Shown here: positions 14,883 to 63,367 of the stretch, one piece after another
Position numbering within the stretch: the first letter of the stretch is position 1
How the letters are laid out: each line of letters opens with the position of its first letter
From: Polyangium spumosum
Lineage (GTDB): Bacteria > Myxococcota_A > Polyangia > Polyangiales > Polyangiaceae
Direction of reading: 5' to 3'
Length of the DNA stretch: 64,000 nucleotides
Assembly (NCBI RefSeq): GCF_009649845.1
Contig: NZ_WJIE01000006.1
Span: forward strand, 1-64,000
The notes under the pieces: model-generated
Seen by the model: the letters and a program-made list of their open reading frames with translations, nothing else
Database searches by the model: none
What the model was told of the DNA's origin: nothing
Program-made: the position numbers and the translations under genes

Positions 14883-14965
14883 GCCGAAGTGGCGGAATGG
14901 CAAACGCGGTGGATTCAAAATCCACTGTCCTCACGGGCTTGTGGGTTCGAGTCCCACCTTCGGTA
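14883..14965 (+). tRNA. tRNA-Leu (anticodon CAA)
   Basis: A complete 83-nt cloverleaf. The acceptor stem pairs GCCGAAG (14883-14889) with CTTCGGT (14958-14964), the first pair being G-U, with discriminator A at 14965. The anticodon stem GTGGA/TCCAC encloses TTCAAAA, giving anticodon CAA for UUG codons. A long variable arm (GTCCTCACGGGCTTG), as expected for tRNA-Leu, precedes the T arm with GGTTCGAGTCC. The 3' CCA is not encoded: ACC is followed by G. Confidence 0.97.
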
Positions 14966-19297: not shown

Positions 19298-19460
19298 GGT
19301 GCGGCGGCTACCACGCGCCCCGAGCTCGCGCGAACGAAAAGTGGCCCCGCGCGCCGAGCAACCCCATGCGTACGGCCGCGCCCCGATCTTTTTTCGGGCG
19401 GGCGCTCGACAGGCGCGTCTCGATGCAGTACCACTGTGGCCGTTCGGGACCCGTCCCGTT

Positions 19461-19543
<83 letters not shown>

Positions 19544-19611
19544 TTGCTTTTGTCCCTGCTCGGCCCGCGGGGGGTTGCTCTCCTCAGGACTGGCCGTACG
19601 CTACGGTCGTC

Positions 19612-56752: not shown

Positions 56753-57265
56753 TTATCGGCCGATGAGGGGGAAGAAGAGGAGCGCGCCGAGGATCGTGAG
56801 CAGATACAGGCCGAGGAGCACGACCGTCATGACCCCGACGAGCGCCCAGAACTCGCGTTGCCGCTCGATCGCGGTCGCGACGAACTCGAGGCGGCCTTCG
56901 CTGGCGAGGACCTGATTGATGCTGTCACGATACCGGAAGAGGCGCGTGCCGATCACGCCGTAGAGGATCGCGATGAGGAGGTAAAGGACGAAGGTGACGG
57001 CCCCGATCTCGCCAAGCACGCGCGACGACGAGGTGGCGCTCATGGAGTAGAGGCCGAAGCCCACGAGCACGACGGCGAAGATGTAGCTCAGGGTGCCGAA
57101 CAGGGTGATCCAGGGCCGCGTCTTCCGCAGGGAGAAGACGATCGCGTCGATCGCCGCGCTCTGCTCGTGATCGTCCTCGGCGAGCTCCTTCTTCTTCCTG
57201 GTCCTCTTCGTGCCCTTCGTCTCCTTGGGCGCCTCGTACGGATTCAGCTCGGTTTCGTTCGACAC
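56753..57265 (-). CDS. Three-TM membrane protein next to the retron RT
   Basis: A 170-residue protein starting at GTG 57265, preceded by GAGGGGG. A charged cytoplasmic N-terminus (TKGTKRTRKKKELAEDD) is followed by three TM helices: ITLFGTLSYIFAVVLVGFGL, AVTFVLYLLIAILYGVIGTR and LVGVMTVVLLGLYLLTILGA. Between helices 2 and 3 lies an amphipathic segment (FRYRDSINQVLASEGRLEFV) similar to DUF5362-type membrane proteins, a family of unknown role. It starts 17 bp after the RT stop, so the two are probably co-expressed. Small TM proteins serve as effectors in some retron and abortive-infection systems; whether this one does is unproven. Confidence 0.8.
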   Translation of the reverse strand: MSNETELNPYEAPKETKGTKRTRKKKELAEDDHEQSAAIDAIVFSLRKTRPWITLFGTLSYIFAVVLVGFGLYSMSATSSSRVLGEIGAVTFVLYLLIAILYGVIGTRLFRYRDSINQVLASEGRLEFVATAIERQREFWALVGVMTVVLLGLYLLTILGALLFFPLIGR

Positions 57266-57282: not shown

Positions 57283-58725
57283 TCACTTCTTCAACAGGAT
57301 CTCCTCGACCTCGCGCTGCCATTTTGCGCCGAGCTCGGGGTGGACCATCCGCACGTAGGCCGCATATCCGCGCAGCCACGCCGGGAAGTCGGGTTTGCCG
57401 CGGGCCTGCGACTCCACGCCGTGGCGGCGGCAATTGGCCAGGATGGCCTTGAAGCGGCGGCGATCCTCGCGCGGGATGGCGGGCTTCTCGGCGACGACGA
57501 GGCCCGTCACGCGCTGGCGACCGCCCTTGCGCATGATGCGGCGCTTCTTGACGTTCTCCGCAAAACCCTCCTGCTGGAGGATTCCGTTGACCCACCAGAG
57601 GAACCGGCCGAGCCGCGCAGGCGGGTCGCGGAAGGAGAAGGTGAGGTCGTCGGCATACCGGGTATACGTGGCGCCGCTCTTCCTGGCGAGGGCGTCGAGG
57701 CGCGCGTCGAGGCGGCGGCAGACGAGGTTCGCGAGGGCGGGCGAGGTGGGCGCGCCCTGAGGCAATGCGCCAGGCCAGACCACGGTGCCGTCCGGGAGCT
57801 TGCTCCGGTGCGTCGTGAGGCCCGCGAGGGCGGCGGCGACCTTCTCGTCGTAATACCGCATGAAGAACCCGAGGACGCGCCGATAATGGACGGTGGGGAA
57901 GAAGTCCTCGATGTCGACACGCACGACGACGGAGGCGCCGACGTGGGGGGTCGCATTGGTGACGGTGGAGCGCTCCTCGACGAAGCCGTGGGCCGCGGGG
58001 TGGGTGGGGAGCTTTTCGAGGACCTCGCGCAAGATGGCGCGCTGGACGTTCTTCAAGCGGACGCGGGGCGCGGAGATCTTGCGCAGGCCGCCGGTGCGCT
58101 TGGGGATCTCGAATTCGACGTAGCCGCTGCCCTTGCCGGTGCCGGGGCGCATGAGGGAGGGGAGCGCAGAGGCTTTGACGCCGACGAGCTTGGCCACGTC
58201 GTTTCGACTCTTCAGCTCGGGGACGTCGGCCTTGGGGGGAGCCGTGAGGGGGGCGTTGGTGGTGGCGGCGGCGCCGCGGCGGAAGACGTAATGGTTGCGG
58301 AAGAGGCCGAAGGTCCAGCCCGTGGGATTCCAGCCCCCGCGCGCGGTGGGGCTCGGGAACCGCGGGGCCGGGGCGCGCCGATCGGGCGGCGAGACATCGG
58401 CGAGGCCGAGGGTCCTGACGGCCGCACGCGCCGCATGCGCGACGGCGTTGTCGGCGTCCTTGACCATGCGGCGGAGGTGCTGCGCGGCGTTCGCCCGCGC
58501 GAAGAGGAGCGGGACGAGCCGAACGCCGCGGAGCCGCTCGCGCGGGTCCTCGCTGCCGAGCAGCCTGCCGACGGGGCCGACGAAGGCGCGGCCGGCGTAG
58601 AAGCGCGCGACCTCGTACTCGGCGAGGCCCTGGTGGCGCTCGAGGAGCTCGGAGACGCGATCGAAGTTCGCGTCGGGGTCGGCGAGCAGGGGCCGAAGCT
58701 CGAGGAGGAGGCCGACGAGGCTCAT
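57283..58725 (-). CDS. Retron-type reverse transcriptase with N-terminal helical extension
   Basis: A 480-residue RT of the retron family. The core (residues about 190-470) has IPKRTGGLRKISAPRVRLKN, VRVDIEDFFPTVHYRRVLGF, LPQGAPTSPALANLVCRRLD, the catalytic YTRYADDLTFSF (Y357-A-D-D) and the retron-typical RQRVTGLVVAEKPAIPRE. The first 170 residues are all-helical, HEAT-like (FDRVSELLERHQGLAEYEVA), and known myxobacterial Mx162-type retron RTs have a similar length and N-terminal extension. The ATG at 58725 gives MSLVGLLLELRPLL. Unlike known retrons, only 76 bp separate it from the upstream gene, too little for msr-msd. The three-TM gene follows at 17 bp. Confidence 0.92.
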   Translation of the reverse strand: MSLVGLLLELRPLLADPDANFDRVSELLERHQGLAEYEVARFYAGRAFVGPVGRLLGSEDPRERLRGVRLVPLLFARANAAQHLRRMVKDADNAVAHAARAAVRTLGLADVSPPDRRAPAPRFPSPTARGGWNPTGWTFGLFRNHYVFRRGAAATTNAPLTAPPKADVPELKSRNDVAKLVGVKASALPSLMRPGTGKGSGYVEFEIPKRTGGLRKISAPRVRLKNVQRAILREVLEKLPTHPAAHGFVEERSTVTNATPHVGASVVVRVDIEDFFPTVHYRRVLGFFMRYYDEKVAAALAGLTTHRSKLPDGTVVWPGALPQGAPTSPALANLVCRRLDARLDALARKSGATYTRYADDLTFSFRDPPARLGRFLWWVNGILQQEGFAENVKKRRIMRKGGRQRVTGLVVAEKPAIPREDRRRFKAILANCRRHGVESQARGKPDFPAWLRGYAAYVRMVHPELGAKWQREVEEILLKK

Positions 58726-58801: not shown

Positions 58802-59902
58802 TCAGCGGCTCCGGGTGCGGCGCTGGGGAGGCTTGCGGGTGGGGCTCTTGCCGGCGGGCTTCTGCTTGGTGGGCGCGGCCTGGCCGAGGACGTCGGCGAG
58901 CGTGGGGGCGGTGAGGACAAGCGCTGTCATGCGGTCGAGCTGCTCCATCGTGGCCGCGTCGAGGATCTCCTCGGCGGAGGCGGGCAGCTCGCCGAAGCGG
59001 AGCTTCATCTGCAGCACGAGCGCGTGGCGAAGGCCCTCGCGTTTGCCGCGCTCGATGCCGCGCTCGATGCCGCGCTCGATGCCGCGCTCGATGCCGCGCT
59101 CGATCCCCTGTTCGAACCCCTGCTGTCGGAGCCGATCGCCTGCGTAGAAGATCTCGTCGAACACGCTGTCGCCCACGGCTTTCCGCACGGCCATGACCAC
59201 CTCGTCCTCGTCTCGTTTGCCGACTTTCCGAAGATACACCATCACCGCCGCCATCGCATCTGCCCCGTCCGCCGCCTGCAGCACCTGCCGGAGCGCCTCC
59301 GCCCACCGGCCGAGCCCCGCGAAGAGCTCCTCCGGGCTGCGCGAGCGGCGGAGGAGGTACAGGACCAACCGACCAAGCGTCGTCATCGCCCGCTCGGCCA
59401 GCTCCGCGTCGTCCACGCGGCTGATGTCGTCCAGCACGATGCCGAACCGAGGGACGTGATCGAGCACGTCCGAGGCCACACCGTCGACGTCCACGAGCTC
59501 CTCGAACCGCCGCGCCGCCCGCCATCCGGTCTTGCTGTGGTGCAGGACGACCGGGACGATCACCGGCAACCTCTTCGCGCGCGGGTGCTCGTCGCGATAC
59601 GACCGCCAGATGCGCACCATGTACTCGAGCAGCCGCAAGAGCAGCCACCTGTCGACGTAACTCTGGTGCTCCCAGAGCACGTAGATGAACGCATCGCGGT
59701 TCGCGATCCTGGCGGAGAACAGGAGATCGCTGCGGTGACCGTCGAGCTCCGGGTCCACGAAATGGCCGGGCGCAAGGGCGAGGGTCGAGAAGTCGACCTT
59801 CTCGACGAGCGCCGCCGGCAGCATCACGCGGAGCGCGGCGGCCGCGTGCTCCGGCTTGGAGAAGACGTACTGAAAGAGCGCGTCGTGCGGGTTGTCGGTC
59901 AT
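58802..59902 (-). CDS. Rpn-family PD-(D/E)XK nuclease/putative transposase-like protein
   Basis: A 366-residue protein of the Rpn/PDDEXK transposase-like family. The N-terminal nuclease domain has DNPHDALFQYVFSKPEHAAA, HFVDPELDGHRSDLLFSARI, and the catalytic-type FIYVLWEHQSYVDRWLLLRL (Asp, then Glu-His-Gln). The C-terminal part contains five tandem IERG units (GIERGIERGIERG), then a DUF4351-like tail (LRHALVLQMKLRFGELP). Rpn proteins are DNA endonucleases that promote RecA-independent recombination, and some act in phage defence. It lies upstream of the RT by 76 bp, same strand. No terminal inverted repeats or target duplications are visible. Confidence 0.88.
   Translation of the reverse strand: MTDNPHDALFQYVFSKPEHAAAALRVMLPAALVEKVDFSTLALAPGHFVDPELDGHRSDLLFSARIANRDAFIYVLWEHQSYVDRWLLLRLLEYMVRIWRSYRDEHPRAKRLPVIVPVVLHHSKTGWRAARRFEELVDVDGVASDVLDHVPRFGIVLDDISRVDDAELAERAMTTLGRLVLYLLRRSRSPEELFAGLGRWAEALRQVLQAADGADAMAAVMVYLRKVGKRDEDEVVMAVRKAVGDSVFDEIFYAGDRLRQQGFEQGIERGIERGIERGIERGIERGKREGLRHALVLQMKLRFGELPASAEEILDAATMEQLDRMTALVLTAPTLADVLGQAAPTKQKPAGKSPTRKPPQRRTRSR
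59047..59106 (-). repeat. 12-bp tandem repeat coding for (GIER)n
   Basis: Five near-identical in-frame copies of the 12-bp unit CGCTCGATGCCG (plus strand) inside the Rpn gene. Copy number can change by slippage without frameshift. Confidence 0.85.
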
Positions 59903-60001: not shown

Positions 60002-60173
60002 GGCCCCCAGCGACCGCGCCACTTGCGCTGCAGAGGCGTGCACAAGACCTACGGCTGCAAGCCGTATCGCCCCGCGGGGCGGTCTCGTGACGCTTCGTTC
60101 TTCATGGGGAACAGGTCGCAGCCGCGACGTGACATCGCGGGGTGATGGCTGGCTGCTCGTGTCCCTGGGAGCC
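60002..60173. repeat. Structured element, copy 1 (possible non-coding RNA)
   Basis: A 172-nt non-coding element closed by a 13-position helix with two mismatches: GGCCCCCAGCGAC (60002-60014) against GTCCCTGGGAGCC (60161-60173). Inside, in order, are a small hairpin (TTGC/GCAG), a long helix (GCGT, CAC, AGACC against GGTCT, GTG, ACGC) enclosing TACGGCT/AGCCGTA and a GCCCCGCGGGGC palindrome, a GTTC/GAAC hairpin, and a conserved GCAGCCGCGACGTGACATCG core hairpin. A second copy follows at 60228. The helices differ in sequence between copies but keep pairing. Strand is uncertain. Confidence 0.7.
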
Positions 60174-60227
60174 GTCCCCAGGGGAACACGTTTTCCTCGC
60201 GCGGGGAAGGCCCTCCACGCAAAGGAG

Positions 60228-60388
60228 GGGCTCACGGGAGGCGTCGCCACCTGCTCGGCAGAGGCGTACGGGGACGAAAAGCCCTGCGGGGCGGTCCCCG
60301 TGACGCTTCATTCTCCATGGGGAGTCGTTCGCAGCCGCGACGTGACATCGCGGGGTGATAGCTGGCTGCTCGCGCCTCCCGTGAGCCC
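60228..60388. repeat. Structured element, copy 2 (possible non-coding RNA)
   Basis: A 161-nt copy closed by a perfect 16-bp inverted repeat, GGGCTCACGGGAGGCG (60228-60243) against CGCCTCCCGTGAGCCC (60373-60388). Internal helices match copy 1: CTGC/GCAG hairpin, ACGGGGAC against GTCCCCGT with an inner GCCC/GGGC, CTCC/GGAG hairpin, and the nearly invariant core hairpin. Between the copies (60174-60227) are small hairpins, including CCCTCC/GGAGGG. The remaining gap between the Rpn and HEAT genes (59945-60001 and 60389-60399) shows nothing definite. Confidence 0.7.
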
Positions 60389-60399
60389 GAACGATCCAA

Positions 60400-63306
60400 T
60401 CACATCTTCGGCTCCGGCGGAAGAGCGTCGTCAGGGCGCGAGCCGTCTTCTTCGAGCAGCGCCCGGAGCCGGTCGCGCGGGCCACCCGGCGCGCGGCGGA
60501 CGAGGGCGTCGAAGCGCCGCGTCTCGGCCCGGACACGCTCGCCGTGGGCGCGCAGCCCAGGGAGGGCGTCCTCGGGCAGGGTCGGGCGAGAGAGGACCGA
60601 GAGGTTCTCGAGCAGCTCGCGGTGGCTACGCGGCGCCGTGAGGCAAGCGCTCACGCCAGGCTGGGTGAGGGAGTAGCGGTAACAATCGGGGGCGCTCGGG
60701 GGTTTGGTTTCGTCGGGAGGCGCGGGGCGGAGCAGGCGGCCATAAGCGGTGGCCGTGAAGGTGAGCACGCCCGTGCCGCGGGCGCGGGCCTCGGGCAGCA
60801 ACGTGGCCTCGGCGCCGGGGTGGGCGGCGCTGTGGCGGGTCATGACCACGGGCCAGGGGCGGCGCTGGAGGGCCTCGACGGCGATCGCGCGGTCGTGGGT
60901 GGAGAAGCCAAATGCGCGGAGCTTGCCTTCGTCGCGCAGGCGCGCGAGGGCGTCGTGGTCGGCGTCCGAGAGGCGCTCGGGGGAGCGGACCCAGAAGAGC
61001 AGGAAGACGTCGATCCAGTCGACCCGCAGGCGCGAGAGCGCGCGCTCGACGTCGGCGCGCAGGGCCTCGGGGCCGGAATGGTAGGTGCCCGCGACGAGGA
61101 CGAGGCCCTCGCGGGCCGCGCGGCGCGAGCGCAAGAAGCGGGTGAGCTCGTGGTAACGAGGCTCCCAGAAGAAGGCGTTGACGCCGGCGTCGCGGGCATC
61201 GGCGAAGCTCGAAGCGACGAGGCCGTGCGCGCCGGAGACGACGAGGGGCGAGACGAGCAGGCCCGTGGTCCCGAGGGGGCGCAGGAGCACACCTTCGGGC
61301 CGCGGGGGGACGGCGCGGCGGCGCGGCGGCTCGGTCGGCGGGGGCGACGCGGGGCGGTGGGCGAGCAGGGAGGGCTGCTTCGTGAAGGCTTCGTCCGGCA
61401 GGACGAGCGTCAGGGCCTCGAGGTGCGCCTTGACGAGGGCCGCCTCGGCGCCGGGCGCGAGGGCCGCGGCGAGGCGGGCGAGGGCGCGGTCGTCGCCGTC
61501 GCGGAGCAACCAGGTGTAGGCCGAGGTGCGGACGGCCTCGTCGGGCTCGGGGGTTTGGGGGTCGAGCAGGGCGAGGAGGTGGTCTTCGAGGCCGGGGGTG
61601 GCTTCGAGGGCGCTCGCGGCGGCGGCGCGGACCATGGGGGCGCGGTCCTGGGAGAGGCGGAGCAGGGCGCGGAGGGATTCCCGCGGCAGCTCGTCCGAGG
61701 GCGCGAGCAGGTCCGCCGCGCGGGCGCGGAGGAAGGGATCGGGCGCGAGGGCGCAGGCGAGGGCCGCTGCGTGCACGTCCTCGGGCGGCAGGGCGTCGTG
61801 ATGGCGGAAGACGAGGGTCACGGCCTGGCGGCGGACCCAGGGGTCGGGGTCGCTGACGGCGGCGGCGAGCGACGCGACCGGGTCGAGGACGGCGGCGCGG
61901 ATCCAGGGGTCGTCGTCGGCGAGGGCGGCGGCGCGGGCGTCGGGCGGGAGGTCACCCGAGGAAACACGGGCGGCGAGGGCGACGGCGCGGATCGAGGGGT
62001 CGGGGTCGCGCTCGGCGCGGGCGAGGACGCGGTCGTCGCCGAGCAGGGCGGCGGCCTCGGCGACGGCGCGGCGCTCGCGCGGGGAGGAGGTGGCGCGGGG
62101 GGCGGCGAGCAGGGCCTCGGCCCAGGCGGCGAGGACACGCGGAGATCCGGGGCGCCTCTCCCAGCCGGCGAGGGCCGCGGCGCGGACGTCCTCGTCCGGA
62201 TCGTCGAGCGCGGCGAGCACGACGGGCAGCGAGCGCGGGTCCCGGAGCAAACCGGCGAGGGCGGCGGCGCGCTGTGCCGGCGGGCCGGCCTTCGCCAGGC
62301 CGCGCACCCGCTCGAGGTCGTCGTCGGTTCCCCGCACGGCGACGACCTCCGCGGCCCAGGCGAGCGCGCCGGGGGGAGGCGTGTCGTCGGCGAGGACGCG
62401 GCGGGCGAGCGGGAGGTCTTCGCCGTTGGCCAGGCGATCGAGCACGGCGCGGACCTCGGCGGCGGCGTGGGGGACGCGGGGCTCGTCGAGCCAGCGCAGG
62501 GCGAGCCGCAACGCGTCGGGGTCGCGGAGCTCGCGCAGGCGGCGGCGGGCGAGGGCGCGCAGGGGCGCGTGGGGATCGCCGAGCCAGGCGACGAGGGCGG
62601 CGGCGGGGACGAGCGAGGGGTCGGCGCTCTCGAGGCGCGTGGTGACGACGGCGGGGTCCTCGTCGGCGAGGCCTTCGGCGAGGGAGAGGGGCGGCGAAGC
62701 GGGGGCCGCGGGCGCGGGCGCGGCGGAGCCGGCCCACGCGGCGGCGAGGTAGGTGGCGGCGGAGGTGACGGTGCCCGTGGGATCGTCGGCGGCGGCGCGG
62801 GAGACGGCCTCGCGCACCTCGGGGTCGTCCTCGCCGAGGACGACGAGGGCCTGCACGGCGGCGTGTCGGACGCGCCAGAACGGGTCGGCGAGGGAGGCGA
62901 CGAGCAGCGGGAGCGCGTCCTTGCCTCCGGCGGCGGCTGCGGCGCGGACGGCGGAGCGGCGGACCCACCAGACGGGCTCGTGGCGGAGGGCGCGGGCGGC
63001 GTGGGGCAAGAGCTCGCGGGCTTCCATGCGGCAGAGGCCGCGATACGCGCGGTCGCGCACGGAGGGCATGGGGTCTTGGAGGGCACAGGCGAGGGCGGGG
63101 GCGAAGCGGCGGCTGCGGAGCTCGCCGAGCTTCTGGGCGGCGGCGGCGCGGGCCTCGGCGTCCTCGTCGCCGAGCAGGATCTGGCGCAGGGCGAAGCGGG
63201 CGGGCAGCGGGCGGGGGTCGAGGGTATCGAGGGCGTCGCGCCGGGCGTCGGGGTCCTCGTCGAGGAGGCGGACGAGCGCGGGGAGGGCTTGCGGGGGGCG
63301 GTCCAC
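60400..63306 (-). CDS. HEAT-repeat protein with C-terminal aldo/keto-reductase-like domain
   Basis: About 968 residues. The first 650 residues are about a dozen HEAT repeats (DEDAEARAAAAQKLGELRSR, DPFWRVRHAAVQALVVLGED, DPDPWVRRQAVTLVFRHHDA). After a Pro-rich linker (PASPPPTEPPRRRAVPPR) comes an AKR-like barrel from GVLLRPLGTTGLLVSPLVVS to the end. Of the catalytic tetrad only a possible Tyr (EPRYHEL) remains: the Asp/Tyr segment reads NAFFWEPRYHEL, the Lys position is in LVLVAGTYHSG, and the His position is FLLFWVR. It is therefore probably not an active reductase. GTG 63306 is preferred; TTG 63348 would overlap a TTGACA box. Confidence 0.83.
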   Translation of the reverse strand: MDRPPQALPALVRLLDEDPDARRDALDTLDPRPLPARFALRQILLGDEDAEARAAAAQKLGELRSRRFAPALACALQDPMPSVRDRAYRGLCRMEARELLPHAARALRHEPVWWVRRSAVRAAAAAGGKDALPLLVASLADPFWRVRHAAVQALVVLGEDDPEVREAVSRAAADDPTGTVTSAATYLAAAWAGSAAPAPAAPASPPLSLAEGLADEDPAVVTTRLESADPSLVPAAALVAWLGDPHAPLRALARRRLRELRDPDALRLALRWLDEPRVPHAAAEVRAVLDRLANGEDLPLARRVLADDTPPPGALAWAAEVVAVRGTDDDLERVRGLAKAGPPAQRAAALAGLLRDPRSLPVVLAALDDPDEDVRAAALAGWERRPGSPRVLAAWAEALLAAPRATSSPRERRAVAEAAALLGDDRVLARAERDPDPSIRAVALAARVSSGDLPPDARAAALADDDPWIRAAVLDPVASLAAAVSDPDPWVRRQAVTLVFRHHDALPPEDVHAAALACALAPDPFLRARAADLLAPSDELPRESLRALLRLSQDRAPMVRAAAASALEATPGLEDHLLALLDPQTPEPDEAVRTSAYTWLLRDGDDRALARLAAALAPGAEAALVKAHLEALTLVLPDEAFTKQPSLLAHRPASPPPTEPPRRRAVPPRPEGVLLRPLGTTGLLVSPLVVSGAHGLVASSFADARDAGVNAFFWEPRYHELTRFLRSRRAAREGLVLVAGTYHSGPEALRADVERALSRLRVDWIDVFLLFWVRSPERLSDADHDALARLRDEGKLRAFGFSTHDRAIAVEALQRRPWPVVMTRHSAAHPGAEATLLPEARARGTGVLTFTATAYGRLLRPAPPDETKPPSAPDCYRYSLTQPGVSACLTAPRSHRELLENLSVLSRPTLPEDALPGLRAHGERVRAETRRFDALVRRAPGGPRDRLRALLEEDGSRPDDALPPEPKM

Positions 63307-63367
63307 GGGGTCTGGACGAGCGGGACGGCAAAGTGGGGCGGATGTCAAGGGGCGGGGCGGTTGCGGC

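Follow-up and report, generated by a model that had tools for sequence, protein, structure and literature searches.

Two structured RNA elements of Polyangium spumosum read as tandem msr-msd genes of one retron

What are the two structured repeats that lie side by side in a contig of Polyangium spumosum? We addressed this question for a stretch of 64,000 nucleotides (nt), positions 1 to 64,000 of contig NZ_WJIE01000006.1 (assembly GCF_009649845.1), referred to here as the window. The original prediction, made from the letters alone, had described two copies of a multi-helix element at 60002-60173 and 60228-60388, had read their compensatory changes as selection on RNA or cruciform structure, and had recognised no known RNA class. 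The elements are very probably two complete msr-msd genes of one retron of a Polyangium-type myxobacterium, that is, two genes for the template RNA of its reverse transcriptase (RT).

Both copies were found where they had been placed. Copy 2, the upstream one, measures 161 nt from a1 to a2 on the minus strand (60228-60388), and copy 1, downstream on the same strand, 172 nt (60002-60173), with an additional hairpin of about 16 nt in its msd loop. Three blocks are common to both, of 74 nt (91% identical), 23 nt (87%) and 16 nt (94%). The covariance model R1 gave 168.9 bits for copy 2, which is in the model, and 110.2 bits for copy 1, which was not used to build it. In copy 2 the a1 arm (60373-60388) and the a2 arm (60228-60243) pair at 16 of 16 positions; this is the perfect closing helix of the original prediction, and it lies within the roughly 8-30 nt of complementarity looked for in a retron. 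The predicted priming (branching) guanosine is at 60362, in CCAGC, directly 3' of a GCCA/UGGC extension of the a1/a2 stem. The msr hairpin, the most conserved part, occupies 60335-60353 (CCGCGAUG UCA CGUCGCGG), and the msd hairpin 60264-60306 (GCGUCACGGGGAC ... GUCCCCGUACGC). For copy 1, folding and the pairing test described below put a1 at 60161-60173 and a2 at 60002-60014; its priming guanosine is predicted at 60149, again in CCAGC, and its msr hairpin folds at 60122-60140.

The same order runs through the aligned copies. From 5' to 3' they read a1, a 4-bp helix (GCCA/UGGC, or GUUA/UAGC or GCUA/UAGU in other copies), a G in CAGC or UAGC, a conserved 8-bp msr hairpin with a 3-nt loop (CCGCGAUG-NNN-CGUCGCGG), a variable region, a long hairpin with the 12-bp msd stem, and a2. 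An msr of one to three hairpins of about 7-10 bp with loops of 3-10 nt, 5' of a longer msd hairpin, is thus present. All 34 copies have AGC ahead of the msr hairpin, three of them after the priming AGC was re-read to an upstream AGC, and the motif is CAGC in 19, UAGC in 13 and GAGC in two; its use as primer is a prediction. A review (PMC6868368) gives the same element order for validated retrons, with an a1/a2 stem that contains or ends just before the priming G, and names TAGC as the commonest priming motif, with CAGC for Mx162 and Sa163. Contrary to the first impression, the elements are therefore recognisable as retron msr-msd, though no Rfam model reaches its threshold on them.

The structure is borne out by covariation. 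Alignment A2 holds 12 sequences aligned without structure, and the structure tested on it was drawn from copy 2, which favours that copy's structure. In it 91.8% of 428 cells pair and 19 of 37 pairs show a double change; there are 54 double-changed cells, compared with 19.1 in shuffles (none of 500 reach 54) and no more than 13 with a slid partner. Another alignment, A3, was set aside with a1 aligned worse than in A2, and RNAalifold on a MAFFT alignment put the msd stem in the wrong place. When 34 copies (32 distinct) were fitted to a covariance model, double-changed cells rose to 256 against 68.4 in shuffles; 19 further copies, which are in no model and were found by model R2, gave 199 against 58.8. 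Slid controls were far lower in both sets.

A pairing test that uses no aligned pair columns set each a1 against every a2, in 21 representatives of the 34 copies (near-identical ones dropped) and in the 19 further copies. A copy's own a2 was the best partner of its a1 in 18 of 21 and 16 of 19 cases (one of the 16 a tie), and in each set none of 20000 permutations reached the summed a1/a2 pairing. For the msd arms, too, no permutation out of 20000 matched the observed pairing in either set. Two of the helices put forward as covarying, the closing helix (a1/a2) and the long inner helix (the msd stem), thus stand, and with them the claim of selection on structure. The third, a hairpin with GTTC/GAAC in one copy and CTCC/GGAG in the other, does not: both forms fold in the window, but in the aligned columns all four pairs occur in only six of 20 homologues, all of them second copies of the genus, and the other 14 keep one to three. 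In a tandem triple of genome G503 (L132 421-1024), the a1 of the middle copy pairs better with the a2 of another copy, which suggests recombination between copies.

On which strand is the RNA? Compared with dinucleotide shuffles, the two copies fold with z of -5.7 and -4.3 on the minus strand and -5.9 and -1.6 on the plus strand, so folding energy by itself leaves the strand undecided. Wobble pairs had likewise been thought unable to settle it. Read as minus-strand RNA, however, the 32 distinct homologues have 79 G-U against 18 A-C cells (57 cells are other mismatches), and 50 against 17 once the conserved hairpin is left out. Because G-U cells outnumber A-C cells, and because a retron's a1, priming G, msr hairpin, msd and a2 read in that direction, the sequences identify the elements as RNA of the minus strand. 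Of the earlier alternatives, RNA or cruciform, the first holds, and a cruciform need not be invoked.

The surroundings agree with this identification. In minus-strand order the window carries a gene for a fusion of HEAT repeats with an aldo-keto-reductase-like domain (HEAT-AKR; 63348-60400), copy 2 (60388-60228), copy 1 (60173-60002), an Rpn gene (59902-58802) and the RT gene (58725-57283). In a search of the phylum with R1, the RNA was found in six of 282 genomes, all six among the nine with the strongest RT matches; R1 was built from sequences of four of these six, G202 and G274 having given none. For the class, 317 genomes were searched under strict filters, at the cost of weak matches (expectation value (E) <=1e-80 for RT, <=0.001 for RNA with R2, <=1e-45 for HEAT-AKR). 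An orthologous RT occurs in 27 of them, once in each. The covariance-model search found the RNA in 28 of the 317, namely the same 27 and G488 (73% complete, E 1.8e-4). R2 includes sequences from some of the 27. HEAT-AKR occurs in 26 genomes, 25 of them with the RT, and is missing at threshold in the RT genomes G368 and G369; in 22 of the 27 it lies within 1 kb upstream of an RNA copy. The linked accessory gene of a retron is thus present in 25 of 27 RT genomes, and its role as effector is a candidate one. Genome G008 (C13:58709-59488) has a HEAT-AKR relative alone, neither RT nor RNA having passed the thresholds. In-frame stops were seen once each, in the RT match of G450 (C197:32456-33583, residues 1-378 only) and the HEAT-AKR match of G451 (C22:106048-106905), and reflect sequencing error or decay; RNA copies are numerous in these genomes.

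At closer range, a DNA search of 59 genomes found the RNA in six, the own genome and five other Polyangium, with both copies in each. RT relatives were drawn from 13 loci (four Polyangium, two Myxococcus, Hyalangium, two Pyxidicoccus, Citreicoccus and three metagenome-assembled genomes). Both RNA copies stand directly before the RT in P. fumosum, and a single copy of 155-156 nt lies directly 5' of the RT in all five Myxococcus-group loci with upstream sequence (two Myxococcus, Hyalangium, Pyxidicoccus and Citreicoccus). The HEAT-AKR gene precedes the RNA in these five and in four Polyangium loci. Between the window and those four Polyangium loci, identity is 95.0-97.5% for copy 2, 90.1-91.9% for copy 1, 86.7-87.6% for the RT gene, 84.6-85.6% for the end of the HEAT-AKR gene, and only 63-76% for the spacer between the copies. 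Both copies look constrained in Polyangium, and because both are conserved, the comparison suggests that both are in use.

Copy number varies widely around the single RT. The RNA is single in 12 RT genomes and double in 10; three, four, five, seven and eight copies occur in one genome each. A tandem pair was present in all six Polyangium genomes examined, and in the window's own genome these two are the only copies at E 0.05. Of the 60 copies in the 28 class genomes, 16 lie within 400 nt before an RT, 33 within 1 kb after a HEAT-AKR match and 23 near neither, a figure that may partly reflect contig breaks, as several contigs are short. G274 has seven copies, one of them after the HEAT-AKR gene, with the RT 636 kb away on the same contig, and in G503 the tandem triple stands beside HEAT-AKR and a fourth copy beside the RT. 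No match to RT, HEAT-AKR or Rpn turned up in nine loci that together carry ten of the dispersed copies (from G274 and from the genomes of L012 and L013); the open reading frames (ORFs) around these copies look unrelated by eye, no family search having been made. The msd hairpins differ between copies within G274 and within the genome of L012. One RT per genome with one to eight template RNAs, in tandem or dispersed, is a layout that has rarely been described. Genomes with two to eight copies, mostly away from the single RT, include G274 (L118-L123), G450, G451, G368 and G352.

A search of 60 loci with R1 (E up to 0.5) gave 32 matches, 21 of them copies of the window's RNA family. Four weaker matches, all upstream of other retron-type RTs (L056 2742-2890, E 5e-8; L036 863-1016, E 7e-6, on the strand opposite to its RT; L082 964-1106, E 4e-5; L079 2777-2916, E 8e-4), may be msr-msd of other retrons and were kept out of alignment A5 and every count. 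The last seven (E 0.0096-0.48) were taken as chance or as antisense of the palindromic core. Upstream of the match to the other RT of the Myxococcus group (L073-L078), no repeat pair of at least 11 bp, 120-300 nt apart, was found in five of six loci; L074 has one.

Several results weigh against the retron assignment or weaken its support. In A2, further pair types are unexceptional (38 against 34.1, reached by 41 of 500 shuffles), and a copy's own msd arm was the best partner in only seven of 21 and 11 of 19 cases. Two of the nine genomes with the strongest RT in the phylum search, G180 and G289, lack an RNA match, and in a third, G166, the match is doubtful (E 0.012). When 23 selected genomes were searched more loosely, 20 gave matches, the weakest being that of G166, and G180, G289 and G325 gave none; the last is Pyxidicoccus fallax, whose RT contig is cut. 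The co-occurrence of RT and RNA has a Fisher p of 3e-38 over the 317 genomes, a value that ignores shared descent. A gap of 1277 nt separates the RT from the RNA in the window, so that the two are not direct neighbours. Rfam at gathering and permissive thresholds yielded nothing convincing on the elements, PADLOC msr-msd models being outside the comparison; its two permissive matches were to frameshift elements (E 0.53 and 4) and were taken as chance. Finally, no sigma-70-like promoter or simple terminator was found.

Of the alternatives, the one that survives best grants the retron and limits its working part: only the upstream copy (60228-60388) would function, and copy 1 and the dispersed copies would be decaying duplicates. 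The greater divergence of the window's copy 1 from other Polyangium loci, given above, fits this view, as does a G-G mismatch in its closing stem, which stays unpaired in the fold. When the four other Polyangium loci are compared with one another, however, the two copies are equally conserved (96.5-98.8% identity for copy 1, 93.8-98.8% for copy 2), and dispersed copies differ in sequence yet keep self-complementary a1/a2 and msd arms, whereas decay would destroy the pairing. We therefore regard single-copy function as unlikely.

The position of the copies between same-strand genes would also suit a cis-regulatory RNA or attenuator of a flanking gene, be it HEAT-AKR, the Rpn nuclease or RT. Yet the RNA is kept where Rpn is absent (P. 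fumosum L003 and the five Myxococcus-group loci), its presence tracks the RT even though 23 of 60 class copies adjoin neither RT nor HEAT-AKR, and the priming motif would have no role, which makes this reading very improbable. Hardly credible at all is that they are mobile-element ends, a cruciform or a palindromic repeat (like repetitive extragenic palindromes or miniature inverted-repeat transposable elements) spread by a transposase or the Rpn protein, as the many dispersed copies in several genomes and the Rpn or 'putative transposase' gene beside the elements in the window might suggest, since copies within one genome differ strongly in a1/a2 and msd sequence with pairing kept, the 79 to 18 excess of G-U over A-C cells indicates RNA from one strand, and the nine dispersed loci lack an Rpn match.

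We return to the reading as two msr-msd genes of one retron and to the proteins it involves. The RT (57283-58725, minus strand, 480 aa) has RT_XIII as its best PADLOC match (E 8e-111, top among 57 families). It carries NATPH (region X), YADD and VTG, the last of which we take to be the region Y motif of retron RTs. Residues N257, A258 and H261, Y357ADD (Y357, A358, D359, D360) and V406TG (V406, T407, G408) are invariant in the 12 sequences of alignment A9, and V406 is nearly so in the wider, 15-row alignment A7. NAxxH is the region X motif of retron RTs (PMC6868368). An N-terminal extension of about 110 aa is predicted to be alpha-helical, in a structure model from 12 sequences that is poor (mean predicted local distance difference test score, pLDDT, 63). 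The window's own genome has a second retron-like RT (G000:C12:65459-66463, L030), 47% identical and of a different lineage, and R1 has no match within locus L030.

The HEAT-AKR gene (60400-63348, minus strand, start codon uncertain) is the candidate third component. The C-terminal domain of its product is recognised by Pfam as Aldo_ket_red (E 1.8e-9) and also matches solved aldo-keto reductases (E 3e-7); in the structure model, many helices give way to alternating strands and helices (mean pLDDT 74.9, predicted template modelling score 0.42). The LLHW position of 4pmj, whose His we take to be the catalytic His of aldo-keto reductases, is LLFW or LLYW in all nine aligned orthologues. Because an invariant FWEP stretch stands in what is presumably the region of the catalytic Asp, the protein is probably not an active reductase, judging by its residues. 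PADLOC HEAT-ARM_XIII matches it weakly (E 2.6e-10), over some 150 of the model's 1972 positions.

Between the RNAs and the RT lies a gene for an Rpn/YhgA-family (PF04754) nuclease (58802-59902, minus strand). The window and three Polyangium loci have it, and P. fumosum L003 and the five Myxococcus-group loci lack it (G004 was outside the comparison); it is an insertion, and probably cargo instead of a core part of the retron. The stretch from the RNA pair to the RT varies among Polyangium, with no large gene in P. fumosum, Rpn in the window, and further ORFs in L004 (1779-5935; one ATPase-like by eye) and L005 (2563-5934); it seems to be a hotspot for insertions. Just upstream of the RT, on the opposite strand, G202 (L125 6405-9734) and G274 (L124 3049-6372) have long ORFs of 1109 and 1107 aa with similar starts. 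Directly downstream of the RT, inspection by eye showed a small, membrane-like protein that has NPYEAP close to its start (window, about 56753-57230; L005 7481-7978). Elsewhere in the window, Rfam matches a bacterial small signal recognition particle RNA (19460-19547) and a tRNA (14883-14965).

How might such a system work? Each copy would be transcribed from the minus strand, and its a1/a2 arms would close the RNA, ending in a short GCCA/UGGC helix that presents the G of CAGC. By analogy with known retrons, the RT could recognise the conserved msr hairpin, prime on the 2'-OH of this guanosine and copy the msd hairpin into multicopy single-stranded DNA (msDNA), of about 60-75 nt to judge from the position of the stem. 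The same RT would presumably serve both copies; the duplication accounts for two template RNAs per RT. On the same analogy, the HEAT-AKR-like protein is most likely the third component, an effector or sensor that might be held or triggered through the RT-msDNA complex, and the whole could act against phages.

A bolder proposal, which we find plausible without favouring it, is that several to eight dispersed msr-msd genes, which keep the RT-binding msr but differ in their msd hairpins, act in trans for one RT and one HEAT-AKR-like partner. The resulting set of msDNAs, each possibly a separate phage bait or sensor, would feed one effector, an innate array in place of a single trigger. Should every copy be in use, a single defence system would produce a varied set of msDNAs, with the conserved msr marking what the RT requires and the diversity of the msd what the trigger reads. 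In addition, HEAT repeats with a degenerate aldo-keto reductase fold are a candidate new type of retron partner, and non-coding RNAs such as these are missed when only DNA adjacent to the RT is searched.

The retron msr-msd is an RNA kind already known, and retrons are usually described, in one account (PMC12548924), as an RT, a template non-coding RNA and an effector. With retrons in general, the window's system shares the NAxxH, YADD and VTG motifs of the RT, the a1/a2 stem, the G in (C/U)AGC, the msr and msd hairpins and a linked extra protein gene. Points of difference are the number of msr-msd per RT, two within the window's genus and as many as eight (mostly dispersed) in relatives, and the HEAT-AKR-like fusion partner. 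In the literature searched, which covered few subscription papers, we found no report of tandem or dispersed non-coding RNAs in this RT clade, beyond a passage on Ne160, or of a HEAT-AKR retron partner. The nearest type is Retron type XIII, to which the RT is assigned by profile match (RT_XIII the best PADLOC model) and no tree. HEAT-ARM_XIII matches the partner over a short part only, and here an AKR-like domain is fused to it. Type XIII also has a WH/SWIM partner.

Among myxobacterial retrons, Retron-Mxa1 (Mx162) and Retron-Sau1 (Sa163) share with the window an RT with an N-terminal extension and the priming motif CAGC. Identity with Mx162 is ruled out by precursor length, 241 nt with an msd of 162 nt in the review (PMC6868368) against 161 and 172 nt here and 155-156 nt in the Myxococcus group. 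Retron-Mxa2 (Mx65), described there with the priming motif GAGC and a substituted N in NAxxH (PMC6868368), is ruled out by CAGC and NATPH. The layout is closest to that of Retron-Nex1 (Ne160) of Nannocystis exedens, for which the same review reports several duplicated msr/msd repeats and no RT within 1 kb (PMC6868368); the likeness, multiple msr/msd repeats away from the RT, is one of description and not of sequence.
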